DNA from: Ovis canadensis | Lineage: Eukaryota > Chordata > Mammalia > Artiodactyla > Bovidae | Assembly: GCF_042477335.2 (NCBI RefSeq) | Contig: NC_091247.1 | Span: 12,873,001-12,937,000 of the forward strand | Reading direction: 5' to 3' | DNA length: 64,000 bases | Part shown: piece after piece, positions 9,401 through 37,186 of the stretch | Layout: each line of letters opens with the position of its first letter | Position numbering within the stretch: the stretch's first letter is position 1 | Notes under the pieces: model-generated | The model's database searches: none | Told to the model about the DNA's origin: nothing | The model's input: only the letters and a program-made list of their open reading frames with translations | Made by a program: the position numbers and the translations under genes

Positions 9401-12400
9401 AAGCCTTTGACTGTGTGGATCCAGCAAACTGGAAAATTCTTAGAGATGGGAATACCAGACCACATTACCTGCCTCCTGAGAAATCTGTATGCAGTTCAAA
9501 AGGCAACAGTTAGAACTGGACATGGAACAGACTGGTTCCAAATTGGGAAAGGAGTATTTCAAGGCTGGATATTGTCACCCTGCTTATTTAACTTATATGC
9601 AGAATACATCATATGAAATGCCGGGCTGGATGAAGCACAAGCTAGAATCAAGATTGCCAGGAGAAATATCAATAGCCTCAGATATGCAGATGACACCACC
9701 CTTATGTCAGAAAGTGAAGAACTAAAGTGCCTCTTGATGAAAGTGAAAAAGGAGAGTGAAAAAGTTGGCTTAAAACTCAACATTCAAAAAACTAAGATCA
9801 TGGCATCCGGTTCCATCACTTCATGGCAAATAGATGGGGAAACAATGGTAACAGTGACAGACTTTATATTTTGGGGCTCCAAAATCACTGCAGATGGTGA
9901 TTCCAGCCATGAAATTAAAAGATGCTTGCTCCTTGGAAGAAAAGTTTTGACCAACCTATACAGCATATTAAAAACCAGAGACATTACTTTGCCAACGAAG
10001 GTCTGTCTAGTCAAAGCTATGGTTTTTCCAGTAGTCATGTATGGATGTAAGAGTTGGGCTATAAAGAAAGCTGAGCGCCGAAGAATTGATGCTTTTCAAC
10101 TGTGGTGTTGGAGAAGACTCTTGAGAGTCCGTTGGACTGCAAGGAGATCCAACCAGTCCATTCTGAAGGAGATCAGTTCTGGGTGTTCTTTGGAAGGAAT
10201 GATGCTAAAGCTGAAACTCCAGTACTTTGGCCACCTCTTGTGAAGAGTTGACTCATTTGAAAAGACTCTGACGCTGGGAAAGATTGAAGGTGGGAGGAGA
10301 AGGGGATGACAGAGGATAAGATGGTTGCATCACCAACTCAATGGACATGAGTTTGGGTAAACTCTGGGAATTGGTGATGGACAGTGAAGTCTGGCACGCT
10401 GCAGTCTGTGGGATCACAAAGAGTCAGACACGACTGCATGACTGAACTTACCTGAATTTGAACCTTGTCATGAATTCAAGTGCCTTTTTCCTGCAGTCAA
10501 AGAATTTGCCATTCGAAAAGTACTTAATCCAGATTTTATGGTATGTGACATTCTGATATGGAAAACCAGATAATCTGTGTAAAGCACTTAGCATATTGCA
10601 TAGAATATGCTTAGTAATTGCTGTGTGCATCACAACAAACTGTGGAAAATTCTTAAAGAGATGGGAATACCAGACCACTTCACCTGCCTCCTGAGAAATC
10701 TGTGTGCGGGTCAAGAAGCAACAGTTAGAACTGGACATGGAACAACAGACTGGTTCCAAATCGGGGAAGGAGTACATCAAGGCTGTATTTTGTCACCCTG
10801 CTGAGTTAATTTATATGCAAAGTACATCATTCGAGATGCCAGGCTGGATGAAGCACAAGCTGGAATCACGATTGCTGGGAGAAATACCAATAACCTCGGA
10901 TATGCAGATGACACCACCCTTATAGGAAAAAGCGAAGAACTAAAGATCCTCTTGATAAAAGTGAAAGAGGAGAAATAGTTGGCTTAAAACTTAACATTCA
11001 GAAAACTAAAATCATGGCATCTGTTCCCATCAGTTCATGGGAAATAGATGGAGGATCAATGGAAACAGTGACAGACTATTTTTTTGGGCTCCAAAATCAC
11101 TACAGATGGTGACTACAGCCATGAAATTAAAAGACTCTTGCTCCTTGGAAGGAAAGTTATGACCAACCTATACTGCATATTAAAAAGCAGAGATATTAAA
11201 GATATTACTTTGCCAACGAATGTCCATCTTTTGAAAGCTATGGTTTTCTAGTAGTCATGTATGGATGTAAGAGTTGGACTATAAAGAAAGCTGAGCACCA
11301 AAGAATTGATGCTTTTGATCTGTGCTGTTGGAGAAAACTCTTGAGAGTCCCTTGGACCGCAAGGAGATCCAACCAGTCCATCCTAAAGGAGATCAATCCT
11401 GAGTATTCATTGGAAGGTCTGATGCTGAAGCTCCAAAACTTTGGCCACCTGATGCAGAGAAGTGACTCATTTGAAAAGACCCTGATGCTGGGAAAGATTG
11501 AGGGCAGGAGGAGAAGGGGATGACACAGGATGAGATGGTTGGATGGCATCACCGACTCAATTTACATGGGTTTGAGTAGGCTCCAGGAGTTGGTGATGGA
11601 CAGGGAAGCCTGACGTGCTGCAGTCCATGGGGTCACACAGAATTGGACCCGACTTAGTGACTGAATTGACTTACTATTGTTATGAGGAAATCCTAATTAT
11701 TTTCCTGCTTGCCTTTATTGAACTTCAGAGTAAGCCCAGCACTAAAAACCTCTAACGTCTAAGCTGTTTGTACTTACTATTCTGTCTACAGTTTCTTAGT
11801 TATTTTCTACATTTTGATGCACAAATACACGTAAAAGTAAGCATCTTCTAGATTAATCTCAGCTAGACGTAAAGGCACCCCATATTCCTTGTTGTTTATA
11901 AAACTGTTGCTTTAATAGGGCTTCTTTAGTTTGAGATGCAGTGTATTGAATTCCTGCATCATTAACAAGATCTTTTTCTTCAGTTACCACCACATATCTT
12001 CTCTCTGCCAGAGTTTGACTTCTTCAGAGGATGTAAGAAGCCATGGTAAGATCCTCTGGAACTGATCGCGTGGTGACTCAAAAGAGTCATTTGTGTTTTC
12101 TTTTTTTTAAGTAAAAGAAAGCTTATGTGTTTTGCATCAGTTTAATGAGTAACTGTTTTACTGGTATTCTGTTTGTCCAGCAGATATTTACTGACTACCT
12201 ACTGTGTGGCAGGAACTTTTCCATTTGTCTGACAAATATTACTGAGTGCCTTCTATATGCCACAAATGTTTACAGTCCTAGGGATCTAGCAGTTAACAAA
12301 ATGGACGAAAGTGGCCTTTCTTCATTTAGTTTACATTTCAGTTAATCTTAACTCTTAATAGAACAATCCTACCTGAAATTTGTGTTTTTTGTTTTGTTTT

Positions 12401-15400
12401 TTATTTTTCACCCTCACCAAAATATGAGATCTTTTACTATAATCTTGTGAACTAATAGTGTAAGGTAGCAGTGAAATTCATTGCCTTATTTGTCACCTGG
12501 AAAACCTGAAGCGTTGTCTGTCAGTGGTCACTATATAATTTTATGAAAAGTTCGTACTGATGAAGACTTAACAGACATAGGCAGTGATTTATCATTTGCA
12601 TTTGTTAAATTTTCTCTCTAGTAAAATTGGCTCTCCACCTAAGACTCCTGTAAGTAATGTAGCGGCTACCTCAGCTGGGCCCACTAATGCTGGAACAGAG
12701 CTGAATTCTGTGCCTCCAAAATCCAGCCCATTTATCACTAGAGTACCAGTATATCCTCAGCATTCTGAGAACATTCAGTATTTTCAAGATCCAAGGACTC
12801 AGATACCCTTTGAAGTCCCACAGTACCCACAAACTGGTAAGTGATTTTAGATAATTCTAAGAAAAAGAAACTACAATATAACATTTGTTGTAATAAATCA
12901 GTGAGTCATTTATAGCTAGCTAGAATATCTACATGAAAAAAATTAATCCTTTGGACTGCATGACCCTTAAATTTTCTTCCTGTCTTAAGAATCTATGACC
13001 AATAGTTTTTAAGATTTCTCAGTCCTATGAATCAAATATGGGGTTCATGGGTGAGCATTAGTGAGTTTTGTATATCCTCGGAAATAGTGTACTAAATGTT
13101 TGGTTTGTATACACTTAAAGTATAATTTTGGAAGGACAGCACACAGCTTATATAGATTATGAAGGATGTTTTTAAACTGTTCTCCCCAAAAGGTTAAGAA
13201 TCAATGATCTAACTAACTACTTAAACCAACACCTGTGGCAATACCTGCCCTCGAAGGAAACTTACCAGGCATCTGTTAAAAGTTCATTGTATGTTTTTAA
13301 GGTGCAGTTTAACAAAATGTTGAATGTTAAGGAGATTTTGATATAGTGGAGTCTTGAAAGCATGTAGTATCTTTCTAATCCTGGGGTAACTAAAATTCAA
13401 AACTTAAGTTATTTTCCCACATTAAAGGCTGCTTTAGACTTAAACCATTATAAGATGTTAAATTTTACTAAAATTACATTAAATATTCCTCTTTCCAATT
13501 TTCAAGGATACTACCCACCACCTCCAACGGTACCAGCTGGTGTGGCTCCCTGTGTTCCTCGCTTTGTGAGGTCCAATAACGTTCCAGAGTCCTCCCTCCC
13601 ACCTGCTTCCATGCCATATGCCGATCATTACAGTACATTTTCCCCTCGAGATCGAATGAATTCTTCTCCTTACCAACCTCCTCCTCCGCAGCCGTATGGA
13701 CCAGTTCCCCCAGTACCTTCTGGAATGTATGCTCCTGTGTACGACAGCAGGCGCATCTGGCGCCCACCTATGTACCAACGAGATGACATTATTAGAAGCA
13801 ATTCTTTACCTCCAATGGATGTGATGCACTCGTCTGTGTATCAGACGTCTTTGCGGGAAAGATACAACTCATTAGATGGGTATTATTCAGTGGCTTGTCA
13901 GCCACCAAGTGAGCCAAGGACGACTGTGCCTTTACCAAGGGTAAGTGATAATGGAACTAGGAATGCTGGCACAGCATAGTAGTTAAGAGTCTAGTGTGTG
14001 ATGTTACAACATTTGGGTATATCTTGGCTCCTCCACTTACTAATTGTGTAACTCAATGGAATTTACTTGACTTCTCTATGTCAGTTTTTTCACTTTTGAT
14101 GGAAATAATAGTAGTACCTACCTCATAAGGCTGTTGCGAGGATTAAATCAGAAAAAGCTCTTAGACTTGGACCTGATGCATATACATGCTCAATAAATGT
14201 TATGTTTGGATACGAAACTGATCAGAAAGATACAAAGACAGGGCCTGTTTTTACTATCCCCACATATATACATACGATTTTCCTAAACCAGAAAAGTGAG
14301 TGCTCAGATTTTACTCTTAACATTATTTAAACCTTTTTGTTTAAGTGTATGGAGAATAGGCTAGGGGGACTTCCCTTCTGTATTCTTTTTTGTCCCAACA
14401 GTATAATAAATGTTCACATTATTTCCACAGAGCATAGTTAAATTTATTTACTGCTCCCTAGATGATTAAGATTGTTTCTTTTATCCCCCCTTAGGAACCT
14501 TGTGGTCATTTGAAGACCAGTTGCGAGGAGCAGATAAGAAGAAAGCCAGAGCAGTGGGCACAGTACCACACTCAGAAAGCACCTCTTGTCTCTTCAACTC
14601 TTCCTGTGGCAACACAGTCACCAACACCACCTTCTCCTCTATTCAGTGTAGACTTTCGCACTGATGTAAGAAAGAAAGGTTTTAATCACTTGATGTTGCA
14701 GGGACAGGTCAGACGACTGACTTCAGAGCACTCATTCAAGCTAGGGATAAGTGTGTTGGATATTTTGCATTGGTTTGGTGGCAGTTGAGTTTAATTCAAT
14801 AAACATTGAGTATGTAAGCTCTCTGGCCAGGCATTGTGACACTGAAGACCGCTAACAAATCACAGTCCTTTTCCACCAAGAATTCAAGTCTTTCCAGCCG
14901 TGGGGTTCTCCTTATTTTTATAGATTTTATTGATAAGTAAGATTTATACCCACCATTTATTGAGCACTTACTTGGCCAGGCACTGTGCTAAGCATTTACA
15001 TGTTATTTAATTCTTACAAAATCCTTAGGGGGCAGGTATTACCCATATTTTACAGGTTAGGAATCCTACTCAGAGAAGTTAAGTAATTTGCCCAAGTAAT
15101 AAATTCAGCCTATAAATAGCTTGGATTTGAATTCTGGTCTGTCTGAGGCATTTCTTCCCTACTTCACAAGAAGTGCAGAAATGACTACTGTATTATTCAT
15201 GGTGTTTTAAATCACTGTTAATTATTGTTATCATTTCAAGACAGGTTTTGCACCAGGATTGTTTTAATGTACCCTGTTTTCCATACTGTTACATTTAGAG
15301 CAAACCATTAATTTTTCTCTGATTCATCTGGTTTATTCCCTATCCCTAGAGATACTAATAAAAATTTTTTTTCTAATCTTTTAATTAAATCTTTAAAATT

Positions 15401-18400
15401 TCAACATATGCAAAAGGAGAATAGTAATAAACTCCATGTATCCATTATACAGTTATCAACTCAGCCAATCTTGATTCATTTGTAGCCCCTCTTCCTACTG
15501 GATTATTTTGAAGTAATCCTAGACATCTTATTTTTCCATCCGTAACTGTTGAATTTTTAAAGTAGACATATTTTTTAAAAGTCCTAGATAGCATATTTTT
15601 CCATCCATAAATTTGAATTTTTAAATTCATCTTCCCAGTCCCTTTGTCAGATCCCCAGGCTGGGAAGCCTGACCTGGGGCTCAGAATCTTCACAATTGTG
15701 GGAGAACTTCTTTGGTATTATTGTTAACCAGTTGGTGGGTCACTCATCTGGCTGGTATGGGATTTGATTTTATTGTGATTGTACCCTTCCTACCACATCG
15801 ATGTGGTTTCTCCTTTGTCTTTGGACGTGTAAGGTGTCTTTTTTTCACGGGTTCTGGCATCCTCCAGTCGATGTTTGTTTAACACCTAGTTGCAATTTCA
15901 GTGCTCTCGCAGGAGGAGATGAGCGCATGTCCTTCTACTCTGCCATCTTGAACCAATCCCGATCCAAATTTATCTCATCAAAATTAGACTTCTTCAAAGC
16001 AGCTAACCATCTTGAGAAGAGTGTTGCCACTTGCTTAATACGAAAATGTATTTCTATGTATGTGTTTATGTATGTGTGTATTTTCTTTTGCTTTTTTTCA
16101 TTTTTTGGAGCACTTTGTACCATGTTAGAGGCATGCTGTAAATTGTTTTTTATTCTGGGTAGTGTCACTCCGGGGTTCCTTATGAATTCTTAAAGGACAA
16201 AGTGAAAAAGAGAAGGCATTCTGTTTCCTATTAAGATGTAATATAAATACGTACTATTTGTAACTTATTACAGTTTTTATATTAGTTATTGTATGTTTAA
16301 TTATTCACTATAAAGTGTTGTAAATTCTATAAGTTACTTTATATTAGTTACAAGTTTGTAATTTAAATTTCTTATGAATTGCCTTTGCTTTTATTTTTCG
16401 TTCTTCTTTTAACCAGTTCTCTGAAAATGTGAGTGGCACAAAATTTGAAGAAGATCATCTTTCCCATTATTCTCCCTGGTCTTGTGGCACCATCGGTTCT
16501 TGTATAAATGCCATTGATTCAGAGCCCAGAGATGTGATTGCTAATTCAAATGCGGTATTAATGGTATGATTTTGGGGGCAAGGGTTATGCATGTTGATTC
16601 AAATTTTAGAATGATTGAAAGCGTTCGTCTTCATTTTGTTGCTATATACAATAACTCATCTGTAAGCAGCAGTTATATTTAGGTAAGTCCGAAATAAATT
16701 GCACCTAGTGTTTAAATTATTTGAACATAGTGGAGTGTTTTAAAAATAGATGTTGGATTATCACTGAGATACAGTTCATGTCAAATTTATCAGAGAACCT
16801 AATTCCATGTTTTTTGAAAGCTTTTACTTGTATTATTAGCTGAAGTAATTGCCCACGATCTATTTTCTTTTATTTATACAGGACCTGGACAGTGGGGATG
16901 TTAAGAGAAGGGTGCATTTATTTGAAACTCAGAGAAGGACAAAAGAAGAAGATCCAATAATTCCTTTTAGTGATGGACCCATCATCTCAAAATGGGGTGC
17001 GATTTCTAGATCTTCCCGTACTGGTTACCATACCACGGACCCTGTCCAGGCCACTGCTTCCCAAGGAAGTGCAACCAAGCCCATCAGTGTATCAGGTAAT
17101 CCGTATCATTAATACTTCACTTGGTATGTTCTAGCACTGTGCTTTATAATCCTCACTCTGTTAGATACAGAACATGTGTCTCATTTAACAACCACTGTAA
17201 ACCTAGAGTTAAACAGCTTAGCCAGGAGAGCATGGCTAGTTAGATAAATGTGGATTTTGGGGGGAAAGTATACATTCACATCTGTATCTAATTTTTCACT
17301 TTTCTGGTCATTGTTTCTTTCTACAGATTATGTACCTTATGTCAATGCTGTTGATTCAAGGTGGAGTTCATATGGTAATGAGGCTACATCATCAGCACAT
17401 TATATTGAACGGTAATGTTGCTCTTAATTGTTTAGGATTCTCTATTCTCAGACTTGTCTATATTCCCAAAGTACAGATCAAAGTCCCAGTTATTCATGAA
17501 CTGTGCTTTGCTAGTGTTAACTATATAATGAATTTCTGAAAAAAGTTTACATCTGGAATAATGATTGAAACTTTCAGGGTTGATCTGTTATGTAAAACAT
17601 ATATAGTATATAGTTATTATATAGTCATTACTTCTTTAGTTGCTTCATTTTATAATAGTAAACAAATTTCTCTTTAAAGGGACAGATTCATTGTTACCGA
17701 TTTATCTGGTCATAGAAAGCATTCCAGTACTGGAGACCTTTTGAGCATTGAACTTCAGCAGGTAGGCTCTGTGTCAGTCAGCTTTGAGTTTATTTTTTAA
17801 AAAAGAATGACATTTAAAAGCTAAAGGTTGGAAGCTGACTCCTTTTTTTTTCCCCCCTCTAGGCCAAGAGTAACTCATTGCTTCTTCAGAGGGAGGCCAA
17901 TGCTCTGGCTATGCAACAGAAGTGGAATTCCCTGGATGAAGGCCGTCACCTCACATTAAATCTTCTAAGCAAGGAAATTGAACTGAGAAATGGAGAGGTA
18001 AGTACACTGACCCTCTCAGCTTCATCCCTGGTGTATTTGCTGTTTGCTGCTGCTGCATGTTGCTTTATGCCATTGTTTAGTGCATTTTATGTCATTACTT
18101 AGCATGGCTTTTTCTGGTAGATGATTGCTTTTAAAATTTAACAGTAGCTTCCCTGGCTCAGTGGGTAAAGCATCTGCCTACAATGCGGGAGACCGGGGTT
18201 CGATCCCTGAGTTGGGAAGATCCCCTGGAGAAGGAAATGGCAACCCACTCCAGTACTCTTGCCTGGAAAATCCCATGGACCGAGAAGCCTGGTAGGCTAC
18301 AGTCCATGGGGTCGCAAAGAGTCGGACACGACTGAGCGACTTTCCTTTCAATAAAATTGTAATCCCAGATTTCTTTTCTTATATCAGTCATTGAGATTCC

Positions 18401-19783
18401 CATTTTCATTTAAAAGGGAAGCCCCAGTTTCCACAGATATGAAATCAGTATTTTTCTTAATCACAGAGTGATTATACGGAAGATGCAGCTGATACTAAGC
18501 CTGATAGGGATATTGAGTTAGAGCTGTCAGCACTTGATACTGATGAACCTGATGGACAAGGTGAACAGATTGAAGTAAGTACCACAATTAGATATCCAGG
18601 AGGCTTTACTCCATTGGAAATTAAAGTACACAACACAAGGATTAACATTTTATTTTCGTAGGAGATCCTGGACATACAGCTTGGTATCAGTTCTCAAAAT
18701 GATCAGTTGCTGAATGGAACAGCAGTAGAGAATGGGCATCCAGTCCAGCAGCACCAAGAGGAGCCTCTGGAGCAGAAGAGACAGAGTTTAGGTGAAGACC
18801 GTGTGATTCTGTGAGTGTTAGATGTAAGATTCATAACCACTGGGCATAAGCCATGAATATTTAAAGGAAAACAGATACACCATTAAATTCATTTTTGATT
18901 TTATCCTATGAGGGGAAGACCTTATGTAATAAGGCAATGATTTGGTCAGTCTGGATTTTTAGGAGAGCAGAGGTAAATTTCAACTATGAAAGTGCTCCAT
19001 GTTAGTAGCCTGAAACTTGCTTTTTATTGGGATCAATGTTTATTTTTATACTTGAGCATCAGGAGGATGAGATAGTTGGATGTCATCACTGACTCTGGAC
19101 ATGAGTTTGAGCAAACTCAGGGTGATAGTGAAGGACAGGGAGGCCTGGCATGCTGCCGCTCTTGGGGTCACAAAGAGTCAGACATGACTTAGCGACTGAA
19201 CAACAATCAGATTTTACTTTCTCTGTCTGATAGGCAAGCATCAAAACTACAAAATGCAGAATTAAAACCTAAATAAAGGGTTTCCCTTTTTAAAAGTCAT
19301 GTTAGGATATTCTCGATCTTTAGTATAATTACTGCCAAAAATAAGGGTTTATCTTGAACTTGAGTTTGTTGGCCTTAAATGAACCAGTCTTCTATTTTTT
19401 TATTATAATTTTTCAAAAATGGGATTTTTTTTTTTTAGTGACCTCTGATACGTTTTAGTGAAAAAGACATGCTGTTTCTAGGGGCTCTTATTAAAGTGTG
19501 TTATAGCTTTTATTCAGCATGCATGGTTACTCTTAAAAGTTTTCACTTGAAGCCAATTTGTTTTCAATGTCATTTATTTTCTTGCAGGGAAGAGCAAAAA
19601 ACAATTCTGCCGGTAACTTCTTGCTTTAGCCAGCCACTCCCAGTGTCCATCAGCAATGCGAGTGGCCTACCCATCACCACATCTGTCAGTGTTGGCAACC
19701 TCATTCTGAAAACTCATGTTATGTCTGAAGATAAAAACGACTTTTTAAAATCTGTTGCAAATGGGAAGATGGTTAATAGCTGA
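385..19783 (+). CDS. RC3H2: RC3H2 (Roquin-2), partial gene: 13 coding exons, zinc finger to stop
   Basis: Roquin-2 is a cytoplasmic RNA-binding protein. It recognises stem-loop decay elements in 3' UTRs (for example TNF, ICOS and OX40 mRNAs) and recruits deadenylation and decapping machinery; its RING domain is linked to E3 ubiquitin ligase activity. The window has thirteen exons: 385-497, 6033-6341, 12622-12836, 13507-13940, 14495-14665, 16417-16563, 16882-17095, 17327-17411, 17680-17761, 17863-17997, 18467-18574, 18662-18810 and 19588-19783. All junctions are GT-AG, phases match throughout, and the join gives 2358 nt (785 codons plus stop) with no internal stop. The CCCH finger comes first, then a Ser/Thr/Asn linker, a Pro-rich region, a coiled-coil-like stretch and an acidic C-terminus. 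This order and content match Roquin-2 rather than Roquin-1, as far as I recall both. If the protein is about 1191 residues as in human, the window starts near residue 407. RING, ROQ and HEPN domains are off the left edge. Confidence 0.95.
1590..1697 (-). repeat. CHR-type tRNA-derived SINE remnant
   Basis: Read on the minus strand it begins ggggacttccctggctgtcc and continues with a diverged copy of the CHR SINE body, as in other cetartiodactyl CHR elements. The copy is truncated. Confidence 0.7.
3040..3860 (+). repeat. Old diverged mammalian dispersed repeat
   Basis: Phrases typical of an old mammalian repeat are recognisable (for example the stretch around cagtggttcaggcatgagat and tgactccaaggtttggggcc). 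I cannot name the family with confidence. Confidence 0.35.
6033..6341 (+). CDS. RC3H2: RC3H2 exon, Ser/Thr/Asn-rich linker
   Basis: The exon completes the split Lys codon from the zinc-finger exon (AA|G) and stays open for 309 nt to the donor GTAAGT at 6342. It encodes about 103 residues (local 38-141) starting [15 protein letters not shown]. The segment is low-complexity and rich in Ser, Thr, Asn and Val, probably a disordered linker after the zinc finger. Confidence 0.95.
6745..6995 (+). repeat. MIR SINE
   Basis: The order of MIR landmarks is visible: agttgttaagag, a Cys/Ser-like core, ttaggccagttacttaatctgtc, tactacctacctggtatg, and the end agtgcctgccacatag. Diverged sense copy. Confidence 0.6.
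7690..8045 (+). repeat. L1 3' UTR remnant, sense
   Basis: It carries the typical mammalian L1 3' end text: gtgaaagaagctagatacaa, aatgtccagaataggcaaat, gatgaaaatgcttctg, and cactgaattgtacactttg. Confidence 0.65.
8440..8757 (+). mobile_element. BovB LINE 3' end, 5'-truncated
   Basis: It matches the last ~300 nt of BovB: the C-terminal reverse-transcriptase text (yeast-like [10 protein letters not shown] region) and the signature tail gcgactgaactgaact. Imperfect flanking duplications (taagaggg at 8432-8439; taaagaggg after the tail) fit target-primed insertion. Confidence 0.85.
8921..10456 (+). mobile_element. BovB LINE, 5'-truncated, with perfect target-site duplication
   Basis: About 1.5 kb of BovB in the same sense as RC3H2. 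It encodes broken reverse-transcriptase pieces (open stretches 9338-9616 and 9704-10243, with [17 protein letters not shown] and [11 protein letters not shown]) and then the 3' tail. The 13-bp sequence tttgaaccttgtc flanks it exactly, at 8908-8920 and 10457-10469, which defines the insertion. Frameshifts and stops make it inactive. Confidence 0.93.
10622..11670 (+). mobile_element. BovB LINE, 5'-truncated
   Basis: A second BovB copy, same sense, starting in the reverse-transcriptase region (cacaacaaactgtggaaaat) and ending at a diverged tail (gacttagtgactgaattgac). The frame is broken at several points. It repeats most of the 8921-10456 copy, only about 170 nt downstream. Confidence 0.88.
12622..12836 (+). 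CDS. RC3H2: RC3H2 exon, linker with SPPKTP motif
   Basis: The acceptor tctctctag ends at 12621 and the donor GTAAGT starts at 12837. The exon completes an Asn codon (AA|T) and encodes local residues 141-213. It includes SPPKTP, a possible proline-directed kinase site, and ends in the tyrosine/proline-rich stretch that continues in the next exon. Confidence 0.94.
12837..13506 (+). other. RC3H2 intron, nothing recognised
   Basis: A 670-nt AT-rich intron. I see no repeat, RNA gene or open frame of note. Confidence 0.6.
13507..13940 (+). CDS. RC3H2: RC3H2 large proline-rich exon
   Basis: This 434-nt exon encodes local residues 213-357. It has proline runs ([15 protein letters not shown]) and many Tyr and Arg residues. 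At 13794-13811 it encodes RSNSLP, which fits the RSxSxP form of a 14-3-3 site if the second Ser is phosphorylated. Such a site is an inference from the motif only. The donor GTAAGT is at 13941. Reading on into the intron meets a stop at 13977-13979. Confidence 0.95.
13970..14205 (+). repeat. MIR SINE
   Basis: A diverged sense MIR inside the intron 13941-14494: cagcatagtagttaagagtc, then the central core, tacctacctcataaggctgt, and the end tgctcaataaatg. The rest of this intron has no recognised feature. Confidence 0.65.
14495..14665 (+). CDS. RC3H2: RC3H2 exon
   Basis: A phase-0 exon of 171 nt, with polypyrimidine acceptor ccccccttag and donor GTAAGA at 14666. It encodes local residues 358-414, beginning EPCGHLKTS and ending in a Ser/Pro-rich stretch ([11 protein letters not shown]). 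Confidence 0.94.
14945..15145 (-). repeat. MIR SINE, antisense
   Basis: Reverse-strand MIR text: attgagcacttacttggcca, ctaagcatttacatgttatt, agaagttaagtaatttgccc. It lies in the intron 14666-16416. Confidence 0.6.
15380..15960 (-). repeat. Old retroelement remnant, probably L1, antisense
   Basis: The segment with ttatcaactcagccaatctt and ggattattttgaagtaatcc resembles antisense L1 3' ends. The part near 15885-15960 (tgccatcttgaaccaatccc) recurs in ruminant genomes as far as I recall. Family assignment is tentative. Confidence 0.4.
16417..16563 (+). CDS. RC3H2: RC3H2 exon
   Basis: A 147-nt phase-0 exon with acceptor ttttaaccag and donor GTATGA. It encodes local residues 415-463, including [12 protein letters not shown]. 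The next exon follows after a 318-nt intron with no recognised insert. Confidence 0.93.
16882..17095 (+). CDS. RC3H2: RC3H2 exon
   Basis: The acceptor is ttatttatacag and the donor GTAATC. It encodes local residues 464-535, starting [17 protein letters not shown]. Basic and Ser-rich clusters (SRSSRTGYH) suggest phosphorylation-prone disorder. The last codon is split (G|AT, Asp). Confidence 0.93.
17327..17411 (+). CDS. RC3H2: RC3H2 short exon
   Basis: An 85-nt exon between tttctacag and donor GTAATG at 17412. It encodes local residues 535-563 ([16 protein letters not shown] and on) and ends inside an Arg codon (CG|G). Confidence 0.92.
17680..17761 (+). CDS. RC3H2: RC3H2 short exon
   Basis: An 82-nt exon: acceptor tctctttaaag, donor GTAGGC. 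It encodes local residues 563-590 ([19 protein letters not shown] and on). HRKHSST is a basophilic-kinase-like cluster. Confidence 0.92.
17863..17997 (+). CDS. RC3H2: RC3H2 exon with coiled-coil-like segment
   Basis: A phase-0 exon of 135 nt, with acceptor ccccccctctag and donor GTAAGT at 17998. It encodes local residues 591-635, rich in Leu, Gln, Glu and Ala with heptad-like spacing ([16 protein letters not shown]). This resembles a coiled coil and could be a protein-interaction surface in the C-terminal half. Confidence 0.94.
18148..18351 (+). mobile_element. Bov-tA type SINE, sense
   Basis: A nearly intact copy: tRNA-like head (cttccctggctcagtgggta, ggttcgatccctg) followed by the BovB-related tail (gtcggacacgactgagcgac). 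It sits in the intron 17998-18466. Confidence 0.9.
18467..18574 (+). CDS. RC3H2: RC3H2 acidic exon
   Basis: A 108-nt phase-0 exon: acceptor cttaatcacag, donor GTAAGT at 18575. It encodes local residues 636-671, strongly acidic ([20 protein letters not shown]). A second AG directly follows the acceptor, but using it would shift the frame. Confidence 0.92.
18662..18810 (+). CDS. RC3H2: RC3H2 exon, Gln/Glu-rich
   Basis: A 149-nt exon: acceptor attttcgtag, donor GTGAGT at 18811. It encodes local residues 672-721, starting [17 protein letters not shown] and continuing Gln/Glu/Lys-rich. The final Leu codon is split CT|G. Confidence 0.93.
19050..19207 (+). mobile_element. BovB LINE 3' end fragment
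   Basis: Only the last ~150 nt of BovB remain (aggaggatgagatagttgga to gacttagcgactgaacaa). It lies in the RC3H2 intron 18811-19587, which otherwise shows no recognised feature. Confidence 0.8.
19588..19783 (+). CDS. RC3H2: RC3H2 last coding exon with stop
   Basis: The acceptor tttcttgcag ends at 19587. It encodes local residues 721-785 and ends in ANGKMVNS with TGA at 19781-19783. The exon runs on without a break into the long 3' UTR. Confidence 0.95.
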
Positions 19784-21171
19784 AAGGAGGTTCATCTTTC
19801 AAATTTGTGACCATACCATGGAAGCATTTACACTAGCTTTTTATATATATAATATATATTATATAATGTATATTTTTTTTAAAAAAAAGATATTACTGGG
19901 GGCATCCATTTCCTGTGGACTCTTTGATACTTTAAGCCCTCTTGCATTAGCATTATGAAAAAAAAGAAAATTTACTTTACTAGGGTAACACGTTCACTTT
20001 CCAGAAGTGATTGGAATTTGGACATTTAACTTAAGCTTCAAGCAGCTTTTTATGAGTTTGTAGCAATCCGGTGCAGTAACTGAGCCATTTCCTATTTTAA
20101 ATGGCTTCTATAGAAAATTAACAACTCAGTTATTAAACTAGCAGGATCCTACAATGATACATCTAGTGAAAGTAGACTTAATTAACTTATTTATTTCTAT
20201 TTTATGTTTCACTGAGAGAAATTTCCATCTCATTCCAGCTGCTTTATTTATCTTTTTCATGGGACTTTGCATGGATTTTTTTTCCTCTTTTTTTTTTTTT
20301 TTTTTAAATTTTGAAGAGTGGAGTTAGACGTTCTTACCATAGAATTTTACAGGGTTATATACTAGCTTTCTTTACTGCATTATATGTAGGAGTGTGGTGC
20401 AGTGCTTTTATCTGTAGCATTTAACTTTTTTTTCAATTTTCCATTTTTCAAGAATAGTTTCTGCTTTGTTAATATTTATACACAGGCTACTTGTTGAAGT
20501 AAGTAATTAAATATATAACCAAGTGCCTAAGTCTTTCAGCTGATGTACTAGATATTAAATTCTCCTAAGTTATGCAGAATCGTTTTTACAATTTTGATAA
20601 ATTATGCACTAATGTAATGGCAGTTTTTTAAAATGCAGATTTAAGCCTGTACATTATTGAATCTGATGACTTGGCAAAAGAATCAGGTGCTTTCAGCTTT
20701 TTTGAGAAAACCCTGTATGTAGCGTTTGCACTGACTAACAAGATGGTTATTGCTGGGTTTTTAATTTAATTAATTTTGATGTTCATTGCATTATCTTGGT
20801 TAACTATTGTTTATTGTTACTTCATGTTGGGGTTTAATTTTCCTTGTTTTCTGTTAGGTTGATAAGACTATGAACCATGTAATAATAGAATATTGGCTAA
20901 CCTTTATTCATACTTAAAACATGAATGATTGCTGCCCTGCTAAAATGTGACTGAAAAGTGTTTTGACTTGGCATCTGAAAGTATGCAGTATGTTCAACCA
21001 GCTGTGCTCCAGATCTGTGGGAGATATTTTACTGAAACTTAAATTTCAGTCAACATTTGAAAACAAAAGCTGGGCATTCCTTCCTGGTGATCTTACCTAT
21101 AGTTTGTGTCTTTGTTTTTCCCCCTCTTATTTCTTTAAGATTAGTTTGACTTTTATTATTATTTTTTAATT

Positions 21172-21186
21172 AACTTCTGTGAAGTT
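21172..21186 (+). promoter_or_regulatory. Constitutive decay element (Roquin-binding stem-loop)
   Basis: The sequence AACTTC-TGT-GAAGTT is a perfect 6-bp stem closed by C-G around a UGU triloop (pyrimidine-purine-pyrimidine); a U-G wobble at 21171/21187 can extend it. It contains the UUCYRYGAA core that defines CDEs bound by the ROQ domain, with the same UUC-UGU-GAA core as the TNF CDE. It lies in the 3' UTR of a Roquin gene, suggesting feedback by Roquin-1/2. The match is seen; function is inferred. Confidence 0.75.
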
Positions 21187-21489
21187 GTTTACTCTGAAAA
21201 TTGTACTGGAATATTTTAAGCCAAGCTGATCTTTCACCAGGTGTACTGTATGTAAGGGCTTTTCCTGCTAGCAAGATGCTTAAACAGGATCATGTTATTG
21301 GTCGTCTGAGCTATTTAGTTGTTTTACAAAACCACAGCATTGTATCAGATAAGATTTTGATAAAAAGTTTTGTGCACATTTCCAGGGGCGGGAGGGTTGA
21401 CATTTCCCTGAAATTTCTTGATCAGAATGAGTAAATACTGGTGTTTGATACCTGTCTTAATGAACATGCTCATAAGGTGACTGATAAGT

Positions 21490-21497
21490 TGTAAATA
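21490..21497 (+). promoter_or_regulatory. Pumilio response element (UGUAAAUA)
   Basis: An exact UGUANAUA match in the RC3H2 3' UTR. PUM1/PUM2 bind this motif and recruit CCR4-NOT. Single 8-mers occur by chance, so support comes mainly from there being three in this UTR. Confidence 0.45.
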
Positions 21498-22268
21498 TAC
21501 CTGAGAAACAAAGGGGTAGTTTTGATATTCTGGTGTCAGTATGGAAGATCTTACACATTTATTTAATACTCAGATGTATGAAGGTGTTTGTTTGTAGCAT
21601 AACAGCACAGTAGCCTTGACTTAGTTTCCTTTGGTTAGTACTGTACCTTTTTGCCATGGCCAGTGCCCCTGTCCCTACAAAGACATTTTATTTATTTCAC
21701 TCTGTAACCTGAAATGAATAGGAACAAGAGTTTTAAACCATGTTACATTAACTTATTTCCGACATTATGAATTAGCCTAGGATATTACAGGAACGTGATT
21801 GTTATATAATTTATATCAGAACCTTTCTATAAAATATGCGCTTATTACATTTGAAATGCTTCCAATGTACTTTATTTGCTGTTTGTATTTCCAAAAAGGA
21901 TATGCAAACCAGTATGTCTATTTCATGGATATTTAAATAGTGAGATCTTCCATGTTGAAGGTAATGTATTTTTTTTTAAGATTTTAAAATTGCTATTTTG
22001 TTACAAAATAGAGACCTATTAACAGTTTGAGAGCTCCTTATGTGCCCTCAGGGAAAGAACCCTCTGTGCAACAGAACTACGCAAAACATCTTCAGCACGT
22101 TCTGAGGGTGAATATATACTACATAAATTGATCTTGTGTATTTAACCTTATCTTTTTAATTTTAAAATTGAAGTTTTGAAACTTGGTTGTGCTCTGCTGG
22201 AGGGGGTTGGGATAAACTGCTTAGGTGTTTGCCTACTTGTCCAGTGAAATTACATTTGCATCAGTGTA

Positions 22269-22276
22269 TGTATATA
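22269..22276 (+). promoter_or_regulatory. Pumilio response element (UGUAUAUA)
   Basis: A second exact UGUANAUA match in the RC3H2 3' UTR. Confidence 0.45.
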
Positions 22277-22659
22277 CCTGCCAACTTTATTGGTATGTCT
22301 CAGAACACTTATATTAAAATAATGCTTGTCTTGCAGCAGGTGATCCCATAAAACAGTAATTCCCTGTTCTTAAAAACTTGCTCTCTTCCTCACTAGCAGC
22401 ATAGGAACGGTTTCTGTGTAGGGATGATTCTGTATTGCATCCTTTAGTGACCATCTTCTGTTTCTCATGGCGTGAAGTAAATGTGTAGTAAAGACATTGG
22501 TTCTCTGCCACTTGAGAAGAAAGAGCAGTTTATCTGATCCTTCTTCTGAAAGGTACCTAATGGTATCATAGAGGAAAAAATCGCAAATCAGACCTAGAGT
22601 ATGACTTTTATATTGGGGATATTCCCTGACATTTGACCCTTTTACCAGCATGTTTATGA

Positions 22660-22667
22660 TGTACATA
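22660..22667 (+). promoter_or_regulatory. Pumilio response element (UGUACAUA)
   Basis: A third exact UGUANAUA match in the RC3H2 3' UTR, about 390 nt after the second. Confidence 0.45.
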
Positions 22668-23018
22668 TATTTGAAATCAAAAGATAGAAAGCAATAGGAG
22701 AGGAAGTTTGTAATGTCAACTAAACTGCATATGTGGTATGTGGTCTAATTAGGAAAAAGTAGCCTGAGGTCTGGAAAGTGGGAAAACGGTGGGGGTTTTT
22801 TTGTTTTGTTTTGACTTTTTGTGTTTTTTAAAACTTCTGAGTCACATTCTGAAGTTCATGTGCCTCATTCAGATACTGTGATGTAGCATCAGTAGTTCTT
22901 TCCTTATAGTCCCATCTCACCTCATTAATCCTGAGAACGTTACTGAAGTATTTTGTCTAGTTGGTACCTGAACAAAGCAGATTCCTTTGCTTTTCTGCCA
23001 TGACTTTCAATACCATCT

Positions 23019-23024
23019 AATAAA
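23019..23024 (+). terminator. Possible internal poly(A) signal AATAAA
   Basis: A canonical hexamer in the RC3H2 3' UTR. It could support a shorter mRNA that still contains the CDE and the Pumilio sites. Confidence 0.3.
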
Positions 23025-23674
23025 CTAGCGTCATGCATGAAAGTTGTGCATCGTAATTTTCAAGAGGAGGTACTTCGGTGGGTCAGTAGCACTGATACTT
23101 TTCCTAGTAGCTATTTACTCTCAGAATAATAAACAAAACCTCCTATACTAGAAATGAAATTTTCTATTTGTGTGGATCTGGTCACTTTCAACTCAAATTT
23201 CAAGTTGATTCTAAGTTTATAACACACATCTCAGTTTTGCATGTTGCTTTGAGAAAATTACAGGATGCACAGTAATTTGTAGGAATTTAAAATGGGATCA
23301 TTTAAACATTTGAAAATTTGTTTTAAAAACCGTCTAGCTTGCTTGTACATTTTAGATGTTAAAGCCCATGTTGTCTTGTTAACAGGCGTGGAGTTTGTAA
23401 TGATCAGATTGAGCATGTGATTTCAGCTTTGAATCTGAATATTTCTTCCCTAGTTGCTAGATTCATTTTCTGAGCAGACTGTCACTAGTATTGGTGACTA
23501 ATCATTCAAGGGGAAAGTTGCATTTGCAACTGTGTATTGCTTTTCTGGAAGAAATTTCCTTGTGTCTTAGTGAATGAAGAGTGTTGTTGGGATCACTTGC
23601 TGTAACTCCTACATAAGAACCCCTTCTGCAAGCAGAACACAAACGCACATGCTCAAGGAGTATCTCATCTTCGG

Positions 23675-23689
23675 AATAAATTGAATAAA
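23675..23689 (+). terminator. Tandem poly(A) signals AATAAA x2
   Basis: Two canonical hexamers at 23675-23680 and 23684-23689 in the RC3H2 3' UTR, a plausible alternative polyadenylation site. Confidence 0.4.
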
Positions 23690-24510
23690 TTTGCTAGTCA
23701 TTCCTTTATACTAGCGGTTTCTTTGTATCCCTTTGCTGGCAAGGGAATACAAGGAGTCAAGGCCACCAATCAGAACAGCCCACATTTGAGTGGAGTCCTA
23801 TTTTTACTCCAAGAGCAGTTATTCCCCGAAGTCTGAAATTGGCAGTTTTTTTCTTTTTTTTAATAAAAAAATTTTAAATCTCCTTAAACCAGTGGAACAC
23901 AGACACTGGCTGCACTTAGTACTGCCAAAAGCCAAGGTCATTTGCATATATTCCATCAATCTGTCAAGAATTAGGCCTCACTTTATAACCCAAGGCATGG
24001 AAGTGCATGCATTCTCTTAGCTGGGCAAACAATTATACTGTAGTTGTGATACAACACATGTGGCTTTTATTTGTACTGCACATATCCACTGTACAGCCAC
24101 TTGGGAGTATCGTGGTTAGCTTGCAGCAACTGCTGTCTGCATTTATACTGTTTATTGCATATTCTTTTCCCTGGAAGTGAAAGAGAAATGTTTTTTCTTG
24201 TTGCATTGATTACATTTTATAAATTTGCTTAGCTGGAAAGTTTGGGAAAAGAGGCCTGTTTGTCAATTGTACAACCGATTGTGAAGCTCTAGTGTGAATA
24301 TTTTTACGTCTGTATTAGACATTTTCTTTGCAAATCTATTGTTCGATTGAAATGTAAATGAAATTAAAAGATGGTGTACACCCATCATGTAAAAAGCAGG
24401 CACCATCTCTAAGATGGATTTAATGCTCATTTTTAAGGCATATACTCAGCTTCTATTTAAAACTATAATTTAAAATAATTCTGTACAATGAAATGGGGAA
24501 TATATATGGG

Positions 24511-24516
24511 AATAAA
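24511..24516 (+). terminator. Possible poly(A) signal AATAAA
   Basis: A canonical hexamer about 315 nt before the distal one in the RC3H2 3' UTR. Confidence 0.35.
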
Positions 24517-24825
24517 TTCTATTCCATTTATTTCAATTTGAATTTTCCAAATTGTAATGTTTCCCTTTGTGCTATAGAAATAGGATTAAACAGGGGAAGG
24601 CTAGGATTCATAAGGCCTGTATATGGGGGGAGGGCAGAGATGGAACAATGAGGGTTGTGATGATAGTGAATAGCAAAGAGTGAATTCTGTGTGTTTTTGC
24701 TGTAGCACTGAAGTGAAGAGATATTAGCTTTGGCTGTTCACAGAATAGAGCATCATGATTTCCAGTGTTTGAGAGAAAATTGATGGAACAAGTTTGCAGT
24801 ACTTGACATGTATTTGCATGCACAA

Positions 24826-24831
24826 AATAAA
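24826..24831 (+). terminator. Probable distal poly(A) signal of RC3H2
   Basis: AATAAA followed within 20-30 nt by a T/GT-rich segment (agttgtttagtgtc). After it, recognisable dispersed repeats begin again, which fits the end of the transcript. Confidence 0.55.
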
Positions 24832-25824
24832 ATTATTTGTCCACCTTAAAAGTTGTTTAGTGTCAATATTAAGTTTATAGTGCATTTTAGTTATCTTGAC
24901 TTCGTTGGCAAATTTTTTGGTTTCACCAAGCTACCAGGATGCTCTTTGAGATTTAAATAATCACCTGCCTCATGCATTCATCACTGGTAAGGATCTGAAA
25001 GAAGTAGATTAGGCCAGGGAGGTTGAAATACTCCTTAATTCGATCAGTCACTTTATTCATTCAGTGTAGAGTATTTTCTGTATGGAAGATGAGGACATAG
25101 ATAATGCCAGCAGTTCACAATCTAATAGAGAAAATAGACTAAATACACAAATAATGAATCTGAAGTAGTATACTAAAGAAGTTTGAAGACTGTCCAGGGG
25201 AATCTCAGAATGTAACAGAGAATGGCCTCAGTGGATCTAGACACCATTTTTACTGGGCCTTGAATAGTTTTACTCATTGACTCAACTGATGAATTTTAAC
25301 TCCCTGTCTGTGCTGATCAGTGAGGTTGAACGTCAGTGAAACAAACTAGCCCTTTCTCTTGAAGCTCTCAGCCTGGAACATGGGAAAACCAAATCTGAAT
25401 AACCAGCTCAGTGAGCTATTTTCTAGTATAAGGGATATGGAGACTCCAGAAGGGAAATGATGGGGTGAATGGTAGTGATAGTGAGCCAGAGGAATTGCTT
25501 CTTTGCAAAATTACCTCAGGCTAGACTTCACAGGCTGAATAATATTTCACCATCCAGACCTAAATGGGAGAAAACACCCATGTACCTACTCTATCTTCAC
25601 ACCAACCCACTCTGTATCCTAATAGTCCATCACTTAAATATTATGAGCCCTGTTTTATATTTGAGATGTTAAGAAACTTGCCCAAGACCTTAAAACTAGA
25701 AAGCAATGGAGTCAGAATTCTGATTCAAGTCTTATTCTACCTTCCAGAGGTGGTGATGGTTGGCACCTATTTCAACCATAAGTGTTAAACAGTGGAAGGA
25801 ATGTTTGAGGAATAGCTTAACCAA

Positions 25825-28190: not shown

Positions 28191-28984
28191 AGTATTTCTT
28201 GACCAAGTAGATTAGTGTACTTGGTCTACTTCTGAAGGAAATGAATAAATTAAACTATATGGTTTTAACTTAAAAATGGACAAATTCCTGCAAAATACGA
28301 TTTACCAAAACAGATACAGGATGAAAAAAGAAAACTGGAATAACTCTTTTATTAGTTACCTATTTATAATAAGAGCATCCTCAAATTTAGTGGCTTAACA
28401 CAACATTATTTCATAGTTTCTGTAGGTCAGGAGTCTGCATGTAACTTAGAGGAGTACCCTGCTCTGGATCTCTCTCACAAATTCGGTGTTGCAGTCTAGG
28501 TCTTAACTGGCTCTGTAGTCATCTCACGACTCGCCCGATCAAGGGTCTGCTTCCAAGCTCCCTCCGCTTATTGTTGGTAGGGTTCAGTTCCTCCTGAATG
28601 TTGGAATGAGGCCTCAGCTTTTGATTGGCTGAAGCTTGCCCTCAGTTTTCTGCCTCTTGAGCCTCTCTGTAGGGGAGATGACAATCAAATGGTAGCTTGG
28701 CTCAGCAGACCAAAAGAGCCCAGAATAAGTAGGGGGTGGGGCCAGGTGGCGTGAGCTATAAAGAGTCACAATTTTTTTTTTGATAGGTAAGAAGTGGATT
28801 TATTTAGAGAGAAACACACTCCACAGACAGTGTAGGCCATCTTAGAAGGGCAAGAGGCCTCGAAATAAGGCATGGTTAGTTTTTATGGGCTGTGTAATTT
28901 CATAGGCTAATAATGAATGGGAGCATTATTCCAAATATTTTGGAAGGAGCAGCGGGGTCACAGTCTTTTATAACCTAATCATGG

Positions 28985-30055
28985 AAGCTTATTTAACTTA
29001 TATGCAGAGTACATTATGCAAAATGCCAGGCTGGATGAAGCACAAACTGGAATCAAGATTGCCGAGAGAAACAGCAATAACCTCAGATACGCAGATGGCC
29101 ACCACCCTTATGGCAGAAAGCAAAGAAGAACTAAAGTGAAAGTGAAGGTGAAGTCACTCAGTCGTGTCCGACTCTCTGTGACCCCGTGTACTGTAGCCTA
29201 CTACGCTCCTCTGTCCATGGGATTTTCCAGGCAAGAGTACTGGAGTGGATTGCCATTTCCTTCTCCAGAGGATCTTCCCAACCCGGGGGTCGAACCTGGG
29301 TCTCCTGCATTGTAGGTAGACCCTTTACCGTCTGAGCCACTGAAGAGCCTCTTAATGAAAGTGAAAGAGGAGAGTGAAAAAGTTGCCTTAAAAACTCAAC
29401 ATTCAAAAAACTAAGATCATGGCGTCTGTCCCATCACTTCATGGAAATAGATGGGGAAACAACAGAAAACAGTGAAAGACTATTTTCTTGGGCTCCAAAA
29501 TCATTGCAGATGGTGACTGCAGCTGTGAAGTTAAAAGACGCTTGCTCCTTGGAAGAAAAGCTATGACCAACCTAGACAGCATATTAAAAAGCAGAGAGAT
29601 TAAAGGTCTCTCTACTCAAAGCTATGGTTTTTCCAGTAGTCATGTATGGCAGTGAGAGTTGGACTATAAAGAAAGCTAAGTGCCGAAGAATTGATGCTTT
29701 TGAACTCTGTGGTGTTGGAGAAGACTCTTGAGAGTCCCTTGGACTTCAAGGAGATCAACCCAGTCCATCCTGAAGGAAATCAGTCCTGAATATTCATTGG
29801 AAGGACTGATGCGGAAGCTTAAGTTCCAATACTTTGGCCACCTGATGCAAAGAACTGACTCCTTAGAAAAGACCCTGATGCTGGGAAAGACTGAAGGCAG
29901 GACGAGAAGGGGACGACAGAAGATGAGATGGTTGTATGGCATCACTGACTTGATGGATGTGAGTTTGAGCAAGCTCTGGGAGTTGGTGATGGACAGGGAA
30001 GCCTGGCGTGCTGCAATCCATGGGGTTGCAAGGACACGACTGAACTGAACTGAAC
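28985..30055 (+). mobile_element. BovB LINE, 5'-truncated, with nested SINE
   Basis: BovB text from gcttatttaacttatatgca to the tail actgaactgaactgaa. The reverse-transcriptase frame is broken, with a last open piece at 29728-30048. It is split by a Bov-tA SINE at 29137-29338. Confidence 0.88.
29137..29338 (-). mobile_element. Bov-tA SINE nested in BovB
   Basis: An antisense SINE (gtcactcagtcgtgtccgac to tctgagcc) inserted in BovB. Short flanks actaaag (29130-29136) and actgaag (29339-29345) look like the duplicated target, since uninterrupted BovB copies read ctaaaaagcctctt here. Confidence 0.85.
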
Positions 30056-31830: not shown

Positions 31831-33234
31831 CTGTATCTGTTACTACATACTCTCAAAATCTAATGACGCTCTGTCCTGACTGGCTAATAAAGATTAAAAA
31901 TGTATATGTAAATAAGAGAAACCCAAATATTTCTAAAAAAGAGAAAGTATTTTGTTTCTTACACTTTAAATATTTGGGCTATTTAAAGAAAAATATTGCT
32001 ACTAAAATATTATTGTCAAAGCTATGAAAGCAAAGAGGTTTTCTCAGATGCTCCAGCCAAAACCTTAAAAAGAAATTTAATTGCTTCTTAAAGACAATCT
32101 AACATCTAAAGCAAATTTCAATTTATAAAATTAAAGCCTACACTAAAGATACCACTTTTAAAACTTAAAAAAGTATCTATTATATAAGGAAGTAGCCCTC
32201 ACTGGTTTTACATTCATTAATACAAAAACAAAAAGTTGTTTAGTCTAATTTGTAAATAAAGACATATTCAATTGCCACAAATTGGCCCCATACTGACAGA
32301 GAGAGGAAGGTAAAGAGAAAGGTTATTTTAAACAATTCTCACACTGGTTGATGTTATCCAAAACTATTAATATTTCTCGACCTTTAATACCTTTATAACA
32401 AAAAATAATCCAAACAACAGGGACAAATTTGTTCTAAATTTACAAAAATATTGGTTGAAAAACTTTATCTGGGAAACTCAGTAGAGGACCAAGTCTTGTT
32501 TTATCTCCAGTTGATTATAATCTGGAAAAATGGTAAGGGTGGAGTAAGCCTGGGAACCCAGACTTGAGGCATTTAAGTATTTCAGTTACTTCAAAACTTT
32601 AAATATGTTTAATAATAGTTGGCAAATCTGGTTGGATCAAGATTTTTCCCTTGATAAAAGGCAAATGCTTTAACAGCTCATGGATTTTGTTTTTCCAACT
32701 AGGAAATACCTTCAGTACTCTCTATGAATAAATTTTACATTACAGGTAAAATACTTCAAAAACTATAAATTACACATGGTACTCTCATTAAAAGGAAATG
32801 TCACTCTCCACATCACCCCTAAATACTGGTATGATAAACTGAGTGGTCCCGGGGAATTCTGTTCACTGACTCGGGTACACAGTCATATTCCAGATGGATG
32901 CAAATGACATTCCCAGCAAGCATACAACTGGATAACCCCTCTATAATACACAAGAGGAGAACAAAAGAGATCAATGAAAATCAGTATTTAAGCTGTACAT
33001 TTACATTTGTACTTAAATGTTTTATTAGTTTTCTCTTACTCTTACTTTTTTACCTTTTGTTGATTCCTGTTTTCTGTCTGCTCAACTCTTTAAGCTGTCT
33101 AATTACTTTTTGCAAAAAATTACAATGATAGCTATTCTTTCTGGCTTTTAATTATGTTATCTAACTTTCAAAATCCTCTAAAATATTACCAACCTAAATA
33201 TGTCTCCATACTTAACTGGCTTTCAGTCCCCCTA

Positions 33235-33760
33235 AGAGGAAAAGTTATGACCAACCTAGATAGCATATTCAAAAGCAGAGACATTACTTTGCCGACTAAG
33301 GTCTATCTAGTCAAGGCTATGGTTTTTCCAGTAGTCATGTATGGATGTGAGAGTTGGACTGTGAAGAAAGCTGAGAGCCGAAGAATTGATGCTTTTGAAC
33401 TGTGGTGTTGGAGAAGACTCTTGATAGTCCCTTGGACTGCAAGGAGATCCAACCAGTCCATTCTGAAGGAGATCAAACCTGGGATTTCTTTGGAAGGAAT
33501 GATGCTAAAGCTGAAACTCCAGTACTTTGGCCACCTCATGCGAAGAGTTGACTCATTGGAAAAGACTCTGATGCTGGGAGGAATTGGGGGCAGGAGGAGA
33601 AGGGGACGACAGAGGATGAGATGGCTGGATGGCATCACAGACTCGATGGACGTGAGTCTGAGTGAACTCCGGGAGTTGGTGATGGACAGGGAGGCCTGGC
33701 ATGCTGCGATTCATGGGGTCGCAAAGAGTCGGACATGACTGAGCGACTGAACTGAACTGA
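33235..33760 (+). mobile_element. BovB LINE 3' end, low divergence
   Basis: The last ~520 nt of BovB with an open C-terminal RT reading ([17 protein letters not shown], then [19 protein letters not shown]). It is the closest match to the antisense copy at 34234-34757: same subfamily differences ([15 protein letters not shown]). Confidence 0.9.
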
Positions 33761-33939
33761 AGGAGAACTTAACAGGGTGGACCCCTCAGCCTCTTGGTAT
33801 GGTATTCAAGTTCTTGTATAATCCCTTCCCCTTGAGTGTGGGCTGGATTCACTGGCTCACTTCAGATGAAAATAATACAACCGAAGTGATGGGTGTAACT
33901 TAGAAGGTTAGGTTATAAAAGACTGATTTCTATCTTGAT

Positions 33940-34010
33940 CTTGGATTCTCTCTCTGTTCCTCTCTCGGTCTTGGATTCTCTGTCCTTCTCTCTCTCTCTT
34001 TCTATCTTGT
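33940..34010 (+). repeat. TC-rich low-complexity tract
   Basis: Repeated tctctctc runs between 33945 and 34005, part of the old LTR-like element. Confidence 0.7.
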
Positions 34011-34233
34011 TATCTTAGATAACAAGGGCATTTAGGAAGGCAGTCTGGGTGGAAAAGAACAGAGGTCTGCGAGCAACCATGGAAATCAGCTTGAAAGTGG
34101 AACTCTGTTGCCCCAACTCCCCACTTGAGAATAAGACCTCAGTCCCAGCCAACAGTTTGGCTGCAACATTATAAGACATCTTGAGCCAGAGGCACCAAGC
34201 TAAGCCATGCTCAGAGCCCTGACTCATGTACAC

Positions 34234-35104
34234 TCAGTTCAGTTCAGTCGCTCAGTCGTGTCTGACTCCTTGCGACCCCATGAATCCCAGCACGCCAGGC
34301 CTCCCTGTCCATCACCAACTCCTGGAGTTCACTCAAACTCATGTCCATCGAGTCCGTGATGCCATCCAGCCATCTCATCCTCTGTCGTCCCCTTCTCCTC
34401 CTGCCCCCAATCCCTCCCAGCATCAGAGTTTTTTCCAATGAGTCAACTCTTCTCATGAGGTGGCCAAAGTACTGGAGTTTCAGCTTTAGCATCATCCCTT
34501 CCAAAGAAATCCCAGGTTTGATCTCCTTCAGAATGGACTGGTTGGATCTCCTTGCAGTCCAAGGGACTCTCAAGAGTCTTCTCCAACACTACAGTTCAAA
34601 ACCATCAATTCTTCAGGGCTCTGCCTTCTTCACAGTCCAACTCTCACATCCATACATGACCACAGGAAAAACCATAGCCTTGACTAGACGGACCTTAGTC
34701 GGCAAAGTAACGTCTCTGCTTTTGAATATGCTATCTAGGTTGGTCATAACTTTTCTTCCAAGGAGTAAGCATGTTTTAATTTCATGACTGCAGTCACCAT
34801 CTGCAGTGATTTTGGAGTCCCCCAAAATAAAGTCTGACACTGTTTCCATTGTTTCCCCATCTATTTCTCATGAAGTGATGGGACTGGATGCCATGATCTT
34901 TGTTTTCTGAATGTTGAGCGTTAAGCCAACTTTTTCGCTCTCCTCTTTCACTTTCATCAAGAGGCTTTTTAGTTCCTCTTCACTTTCTGCCATAAGGATG
35001 GTGTCATCTGCATATCTGTGGTTATTGATATTTCTCCTGGCAATCTTGATTCCAGCTTGTGTTTCTTCCAGTCCAGTGTTTCTCATGATGTACTCTGCAT
35101 ATAG
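34234..35104 (-). mobile_element. BovB LINE, antisense, 5'-truncated
   Basis: The reverse-complement BovB tail (tcagttcagttcagtcgctc) starts the copy, and RT text runs back to a break near 35104. Open pieces on the minus strand: 34244-34573, 34613-34849 ([20 protein letters not shown]) and 34868-35086 (YADDTILMAESEEELKSLL, with the YADD catalytic motif). Confidence 0.92.
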
Positions 35105-35169
35105 AAGATATGAATATTGTTCTGTTCTCTCAATGTTAGGTTAATTTGTTCTACAGCAATAGATAACTA

Positions 35170-37057: not shown

Positions 37058-37186
37058 CAGAATACTGGAGTGGGTAGCCTATCCTTTCTCCAGGGGATCT
37101 TCCTGACCCAGGAATCAAACCAGGATCTCCTGCATTACAGGCAGATTCTTTACCAACTGAGCTATCAGAGAAGCCCACTCTTCATG
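37058..37186 (-). mobile_element. Truncated Bov-tA SINE with 18-bp target duplication
   Basis: An antisense SINE lacking its 3' half, flanked by a perfect 18-bp duplication aaaccaagagaagaaagc at 37040-37057 and 37187-37204. Weaker similarity extends further left of each copy. Confidence 0.9.

Follow-up and report, generated by a model that had tools for sequence, protein, structure and literature searches.

A Roquin decay-element hairpin in the 3' untranslated region of RC3H2 of Ovis canadensis

Does the mRNA of RC3H2, the gene for the immune regulator Roquin-2, carry a binding site for Roquin itself, and could Roquin thereby limit its own level? The question is raised by a hairpin of the constitutive decay element (CDE) type at positions 21171-21187 of a 64-kb stretch of Ovis canadensis DNA, hereafter the window, which lies on contig C3 of a genome of 2.97 Gb and 42 contigs. 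A preliminary description of the window had named the gene RC3H2, placed the hairpin in its 3' untranslated region (UTR) as the only match there, and proposed a negative feedback loop. The observation of a Roquin decay-element hairpin in the RC3H2 3' UTR is confirmed. Both the RC3H2 CDE and the idea of self-regulation are already known in print, because a Roquin2 CDE RNA (PMC4614863) and a statement on auto- and cross-regulation (PMC6294493) have been published; these and the other papers are cited here from excerpts of their text.

The hairpin and its gene

RC3H2 is located on the + strand and enters the window from the left. A ROQ_II exon at C3:12871170-12871331 (E 5.9e-31) stops 1.67 kb short of the left edge of the window. 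Among solved structures, its 54 residues are closest to Roquin-2 (E 4e-31), with Roquin-1 second (E 6e-27). Since this upstream exon matches Roquin-2 best, the gene name given earlier holds. The last coding exon is an open frame at 19588-19783 (+), preceded by a splice acceptor ending in TTCTTGCAG before 19588, a border set by eye, and it terminates with a TGA codon at 19781-19783. We assumed that the 3' UTR spans 19784-24850 (+), with its 3' end taken from the AATAAA at 24826, and all UTR counts and shuffles reported below use this assumed extent. Other AATAAA hexamers within it are found at 23019, 23128, 23675, 23684, 23862, and 24511.

The hairpin is on the same strand as the gene, 1,388 nucleotides (nt) downstream of the stop codon. 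The window letters at 21171-21187 (+) are TAACTTCTGTGAAGTTG, corresponding to the 17-nt sense-strand sequence UAACUUCUGUGAAGUUG. Direct reading bears out the perfect 6-bp stem with a C-G-closed UGU triloop that had been described. The 7-nt arms are UAACUUC and GAAGUUG, within which AACUUC and GAAGUU form six Watson-Crick (WC) pairs, and there is an additional outer U·G pair. The core, UUCUGUGAA at 21175-21183, fits both the UUCYRYGAA consensus and a YRU triloop, and the 3' side has a purine run (GAAG). As previously claimed, this core is also that of the TNF CDE, which has the same C-G-closed UGU loop, whereas the outer stem pairs are unlike those of the Tnf23 sequence. PMC11609897 reports that Roquin favors YRU loops on stems of 6-8 bp, the closing pair being Y-R where G is in the middle of the loop; with six WC pairs plus one U·G, a C-G closing pair, and a middle G, the RC3H2 hairpin conforms to this description.

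The hairpin is also predicted to fold in its context. The predicted pairing of the six WC pairs is 0.78-0.82 with flanks of 40, 75, 150, or 300 nt per side, and rises above these values with flanks of 5 or 20 nt. No alternative decay element (ADE), i.e. a GUUYUA hexaloop with at least four WC pairs, is present in the UTR, the hairpin at 21171 having a triloop instead. Searching the window with Rfam at gathering thresholds gave no CDE match, only three tRNA matches; the presence of a CDE model in Rfam was left unchecked.

Published elements and chance expectation

Four CDE RNAs, named Ier3, Tnf, "Roquin," and "Roquin2," were used in PMC4614863, which was also the only paper with a full-text match to the 15-nt stem-loop. 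The window and the Roquin2 (RC3H2) RNA have 22 consecutive nt in common, from UAACUUC to GUUUAC, comprising the same hairpin under the same gene name. They differ in that the printed oligonucleotide, whose species is unstated in the excerpt, is without one U that is present in the window upstream of the stem. The "Roquin" (RC3H1) RNA, from the paralogous gene, has 17 nt in common with the window, which are exactly the 21171-21187 span, whereas its flanks are A and C versus U and U in the window. In size-exclusion chromatography, elution peaks indicated that the RNA-binding region of RC3H2 forms complexes with both the Roquin and Roquin2 CDE RNAs in vitro (PMC4614863). The Roquin2 oligonucleotide is printed with 26 letters, described in the text as 27 nt long, and would be 27 nt long in the version found in the window. 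Because 27 nt are stated, 26 are printed, and the window has one more U, one U may have been lost in print. Reference 6 of that paper, cited there for the CDE RNAs, we take to be Leppek et al. 2013.

The idea of self-regulation is found in the 2018 discussion section of PMC6294493, where the CDEs of Roquin-1 and Roquin-2 are said to allow "extensive auto- and cross-regulation"; which proteins are meant by "these RBPs" (RNA-binding proteins) in that passage is our own reading. ZC3H12A (Regnase-1) offers a parallel, being a decay factor whose own mRNA has a CDE and for which auto- and cross-regulation have been proposed, although it is another gene and one whose CDE has reporter data. Because both Roquin CDEs and the idea of auto- and cross-regulation had been published, the present window adds one more genome with the same RC3H2 element.

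Could an AU-rich 5-kb UTR simply have thrown up a CDE look-alike with no function? Two counts favor this. The nine-base core alone does not exceed chance expectation in the window, where TTCYRYGAA has six matches on both strands (chance mean 4.79; at least six in 35 of 100 shuffles), and the 15-nt stem-loop is found at 31 places in the genome versus 14 for the same letters read backward. Against it stands the rarity of the full hairpin. More than three uninterrupted WC pairs surround only one of the six core matches, namely the hairpin at 21171. A canonical CDE with at least five WC pairs occurs once on the sense strand of the UTR and at least once in 42 of 2000 dinucleotide shuffles; with at least six WC pairs it arises in just 7 of 2000. 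The antisense strand of the UTR has none of these. Moreover, the 17-mer of the hairpin is found at two places in the whole genome, one of which is in the very gene that encodes the binding protein and the other on the minus strand of contig C19, whereas the backward control is found nowhere. The rarity in shuffles, together with the earlier publication of the identical stem-loop as the Roquin2 CDE, makes a chance origin very improbable.

These counts also qualify the earlier claim that the hairpin is the only match in the UTR. The claim is valid for the canonical form, because the sense-strand count is one at five or more WC pairs, but it fails for relaxed YRU-triloop hairpins of six or more pairs (G·U allowed), of which the UTR has six more. 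The 22-mer common to the published Roquin2 RNA has no further places in the genome and none in viral contigs. Matches to the 17-mer in 12 stretches of viral contigs were taken as chance.

RC3H1 was also sought in the genome, to see whether it has the same hairpin. The C19 place was tried as the 3' UTR of RC3H1 and rejected: eight RC3H2 frames of the window had no tblastn hit at E 1e-3 in the 25 kb around it (∼16 kb of that upstream). We treat this place as chance; RC3H1 exons that are too diverged, further away or in stretches outside the search could have escaped, the frames having been untried on known RC3H1. A search of the genome for the ROQ_II family returned one place, RC3H2, which does not show that RC3H1 is absent. 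The published RC3H1 oligonucleotide, allowing up to two mismatches, has 98 places in the genome (50 forward and 48 reverse), seven of them with one mismatch, versus 12 forward and 7 reverse places for its backward control, and the exact RC3H1 19-mer has none. When 23 loci from 15 of the RC3H1-oligonucleotide or 15-mer places, three of these covered with 20-36 kb and 12 with ∼3 kb only, were searched by tblastn with 10 queries at E up to 1, there was one hit of 18 residues (E 0.28), which we ascribe to chance. There is thus no convincing RC3H exon at the 23 loci, and RC3H1 was not located in the genome by these searches. As no RC3H1 was found at the 17-mer, oligonucleotide, or ROQ_II places, the identity reported in print for the RC3H1 and RC3H2 CDEs was not reproduced in O. 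canadensis.

Roquin binding, feedback, and competing readings

The present analysis established the hairpin and where it lies, how it is predicted to fold, and that it is identical to the published CDE RNA. It is very probable that the element is the already published CDE of RC3H2 (Roquin-2) mRNA and that it is bound by Roquin. Roquin-1 or Roquin-2 would dock on this CDE via the ROQ domain, and bound Roquin would bring the CCR4-NOT deadenylase to RC3H2 mRNA. The life of the mRNA would then be shortened, so that Roquin-2 would repress itself and also be repressed by Roquin-1. For CDEs as a class, deadenylase recruitment and decay are known from the published excerpts. Single CDEs of CSF3, CYR61, and ZC3H12A cut luciferase to 67-82%, and mutants of the closing pair have significantly higher activity (PMC6294493). 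We infer that feedback of measurable size through the RC3H2 CDE takes place in cells of this species, and consider this reasonably likely. Accordingly, the CDE identity proposed in the preliminary description stands, by anatomy and by the 22 nt common to the published Roquin2 RNA, while its negative feedback loop keeps the standing of an inference. If the loop operates, it would set Roquin levels and let either paralogue cushion the absence of the other, a point of relevance to Roquin-1/Roquin-2 redundancy in T cells.

Several points weigh against feedback through this element. The effect of single CDEs of other genes on reporters is modest, with 67-82% left, and the response to Roquin knockdown differs with the target and the cell type (PMC6294493). 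ICOS reporters from which a perfect consensus CDE and a CDE-like element had both been deleted were still regulated as before (PMC5775257), and the CDE core is present in a minor fraction of the RC3H1 sites mapped by photoactivatable ribonucleoside-enhanced crosslinking and immunoprecipitation. In the excerpts returned by our literature search, RC3H2 mRNA or protein levels are nowhere compared between an intact and a mutated CDE. RC3H2 mRNA was measured in small interfering RNA (siRNA) experiments in which RC3H2 itself was among the siRNA targets (PMC5775257 and PMC11609897), and the excerpts of these two papers give no RC3H2 mRNA value that separates feedback.

Roquin might bind the hairpin and yet RC3H2 mRNA might be governed mainly by other sites, such as further stem-loops, AU-rich elements, or microRNAs, making feedback via the CDE negligible. 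The dispensable ICOS element and the modest effect of single CDEs point this way, as do 24 AUUUA pentamers in the RC3H2 UTR and its six additional relaxed YRU hairpins. On the other hand, the single CDEs of CSF3, CYR61, and ZC3H12A do repress reporters, and do so significantly less when the closing pair is mutated. Constraint on the element is also suggested, because the published CDE RNA of the paralogue RC3H1 has the same 17 nt. We regard dominance of other sites as possible but doubtful. It is considerably less plausible that the element serves mainly Regnase-1, with RC3H2 mRNA cross-regulated by Regnase-1 and not by Roquin. This would be in line with the stem-loop sequence determinants that Roquin and Regnase-1 have in common (PMC8894612), and with the auto- and cross-regulation proposed for Roquin-1, Roquin-2, and Regnase-1 (PMC6294493).

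Other features of the UTR and of the window

The relaxed hairpins were assessed in a test chosen post hoc, in which pairs include G·U. The UTR has seven YRU-triloop hairpins of six or more pairs versus 1.95 in shuffles, seven being reached in 5 of 1000, and the antisense strand has one. A count of seven is also the maximum among + strand tiles (mean 1.22), which overlap and include the UTR itself. Other YR loops (5 versus 3.75; 307 of 1000 shuffles) and the remaining loops (23 versus 19.47; 246 of 1000) show no clear excess. Two results weaken the case: all triloop hairpins together are raised as well (35 versus 25.16; 34 of 1000 shuffles), and YRN loops with at least five WC pairs number 10 on the sense versus 11 on the antisense strand. 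Over-representation of YRU hairpins in the RC3H2 UTR is thus a weak lead. Predicted pairing is at least 0.2 in four of the six additional hairpins (20825, 22620, 23049, and 24189) and below 0.02 in two. Among these post hoc candidates, a CDE-like hairpin at 22613-22629 (+) has arms UUGGGGA and UCCCUGA around a UAU triloop (predicted pairing 0.74), and another at 23038-23062 (+) has 11 pairs and a CAU triloop (predicted pairing 0.43).

Three ATTAAA hexamers at 20132, 20506, and 20554 (20132-20559, +), which are candidate poly(A) signals, lie downstream of the stop codon but ahead of the CDE, and their use would produce a short RC3H2 UTR without the CDE. The long UTR might then carry a cluster of Roquin sites, made of the perfect CDE and several YRU hairpins, and use of the upstream ATTAAA might yield a short isoform escaping feedback, so that the choice of 3' end would switch Roquin-2 autoregulation on or off. 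We consider this scenario unlikely.

Further upstream, the open frame at 13368-13979 (+) contains within it a proline-rich RC3H2 coding exon, with nine relatives at 62-97% identity. An RC3H2 siRNA from PMC4510711 has no map position in the window at up to three mismatches. Downstream of RC3H2 are a phosducin-like gene, with an open frame at 46403-47005 (Pfam Phosducin, E 1.6e-107), and an olfactory receptor on the opposite strand. A 24-bp tandem repeat (46020-46384; 15.2 copies with 100% matches), through which several frames are open, immediately precedes the coding portion of the phosducin-like exon. Reverse-transcriptase-like fragments are found in many open frames, including 9191-10243, 28974-30048, and 33103-36174, and presumably belong to a ruminant BovB-type long interspersed nuclear element and derived repeats. 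The three tRNA-model matches, at 18151-18217 (+), 37101-37169 (-), and 55094-55165 (-), are weak (29.1-30.9 bits, just over the Rfam threshold), and we take them to be probable tRNA-derived short interspersed nuclear elements.
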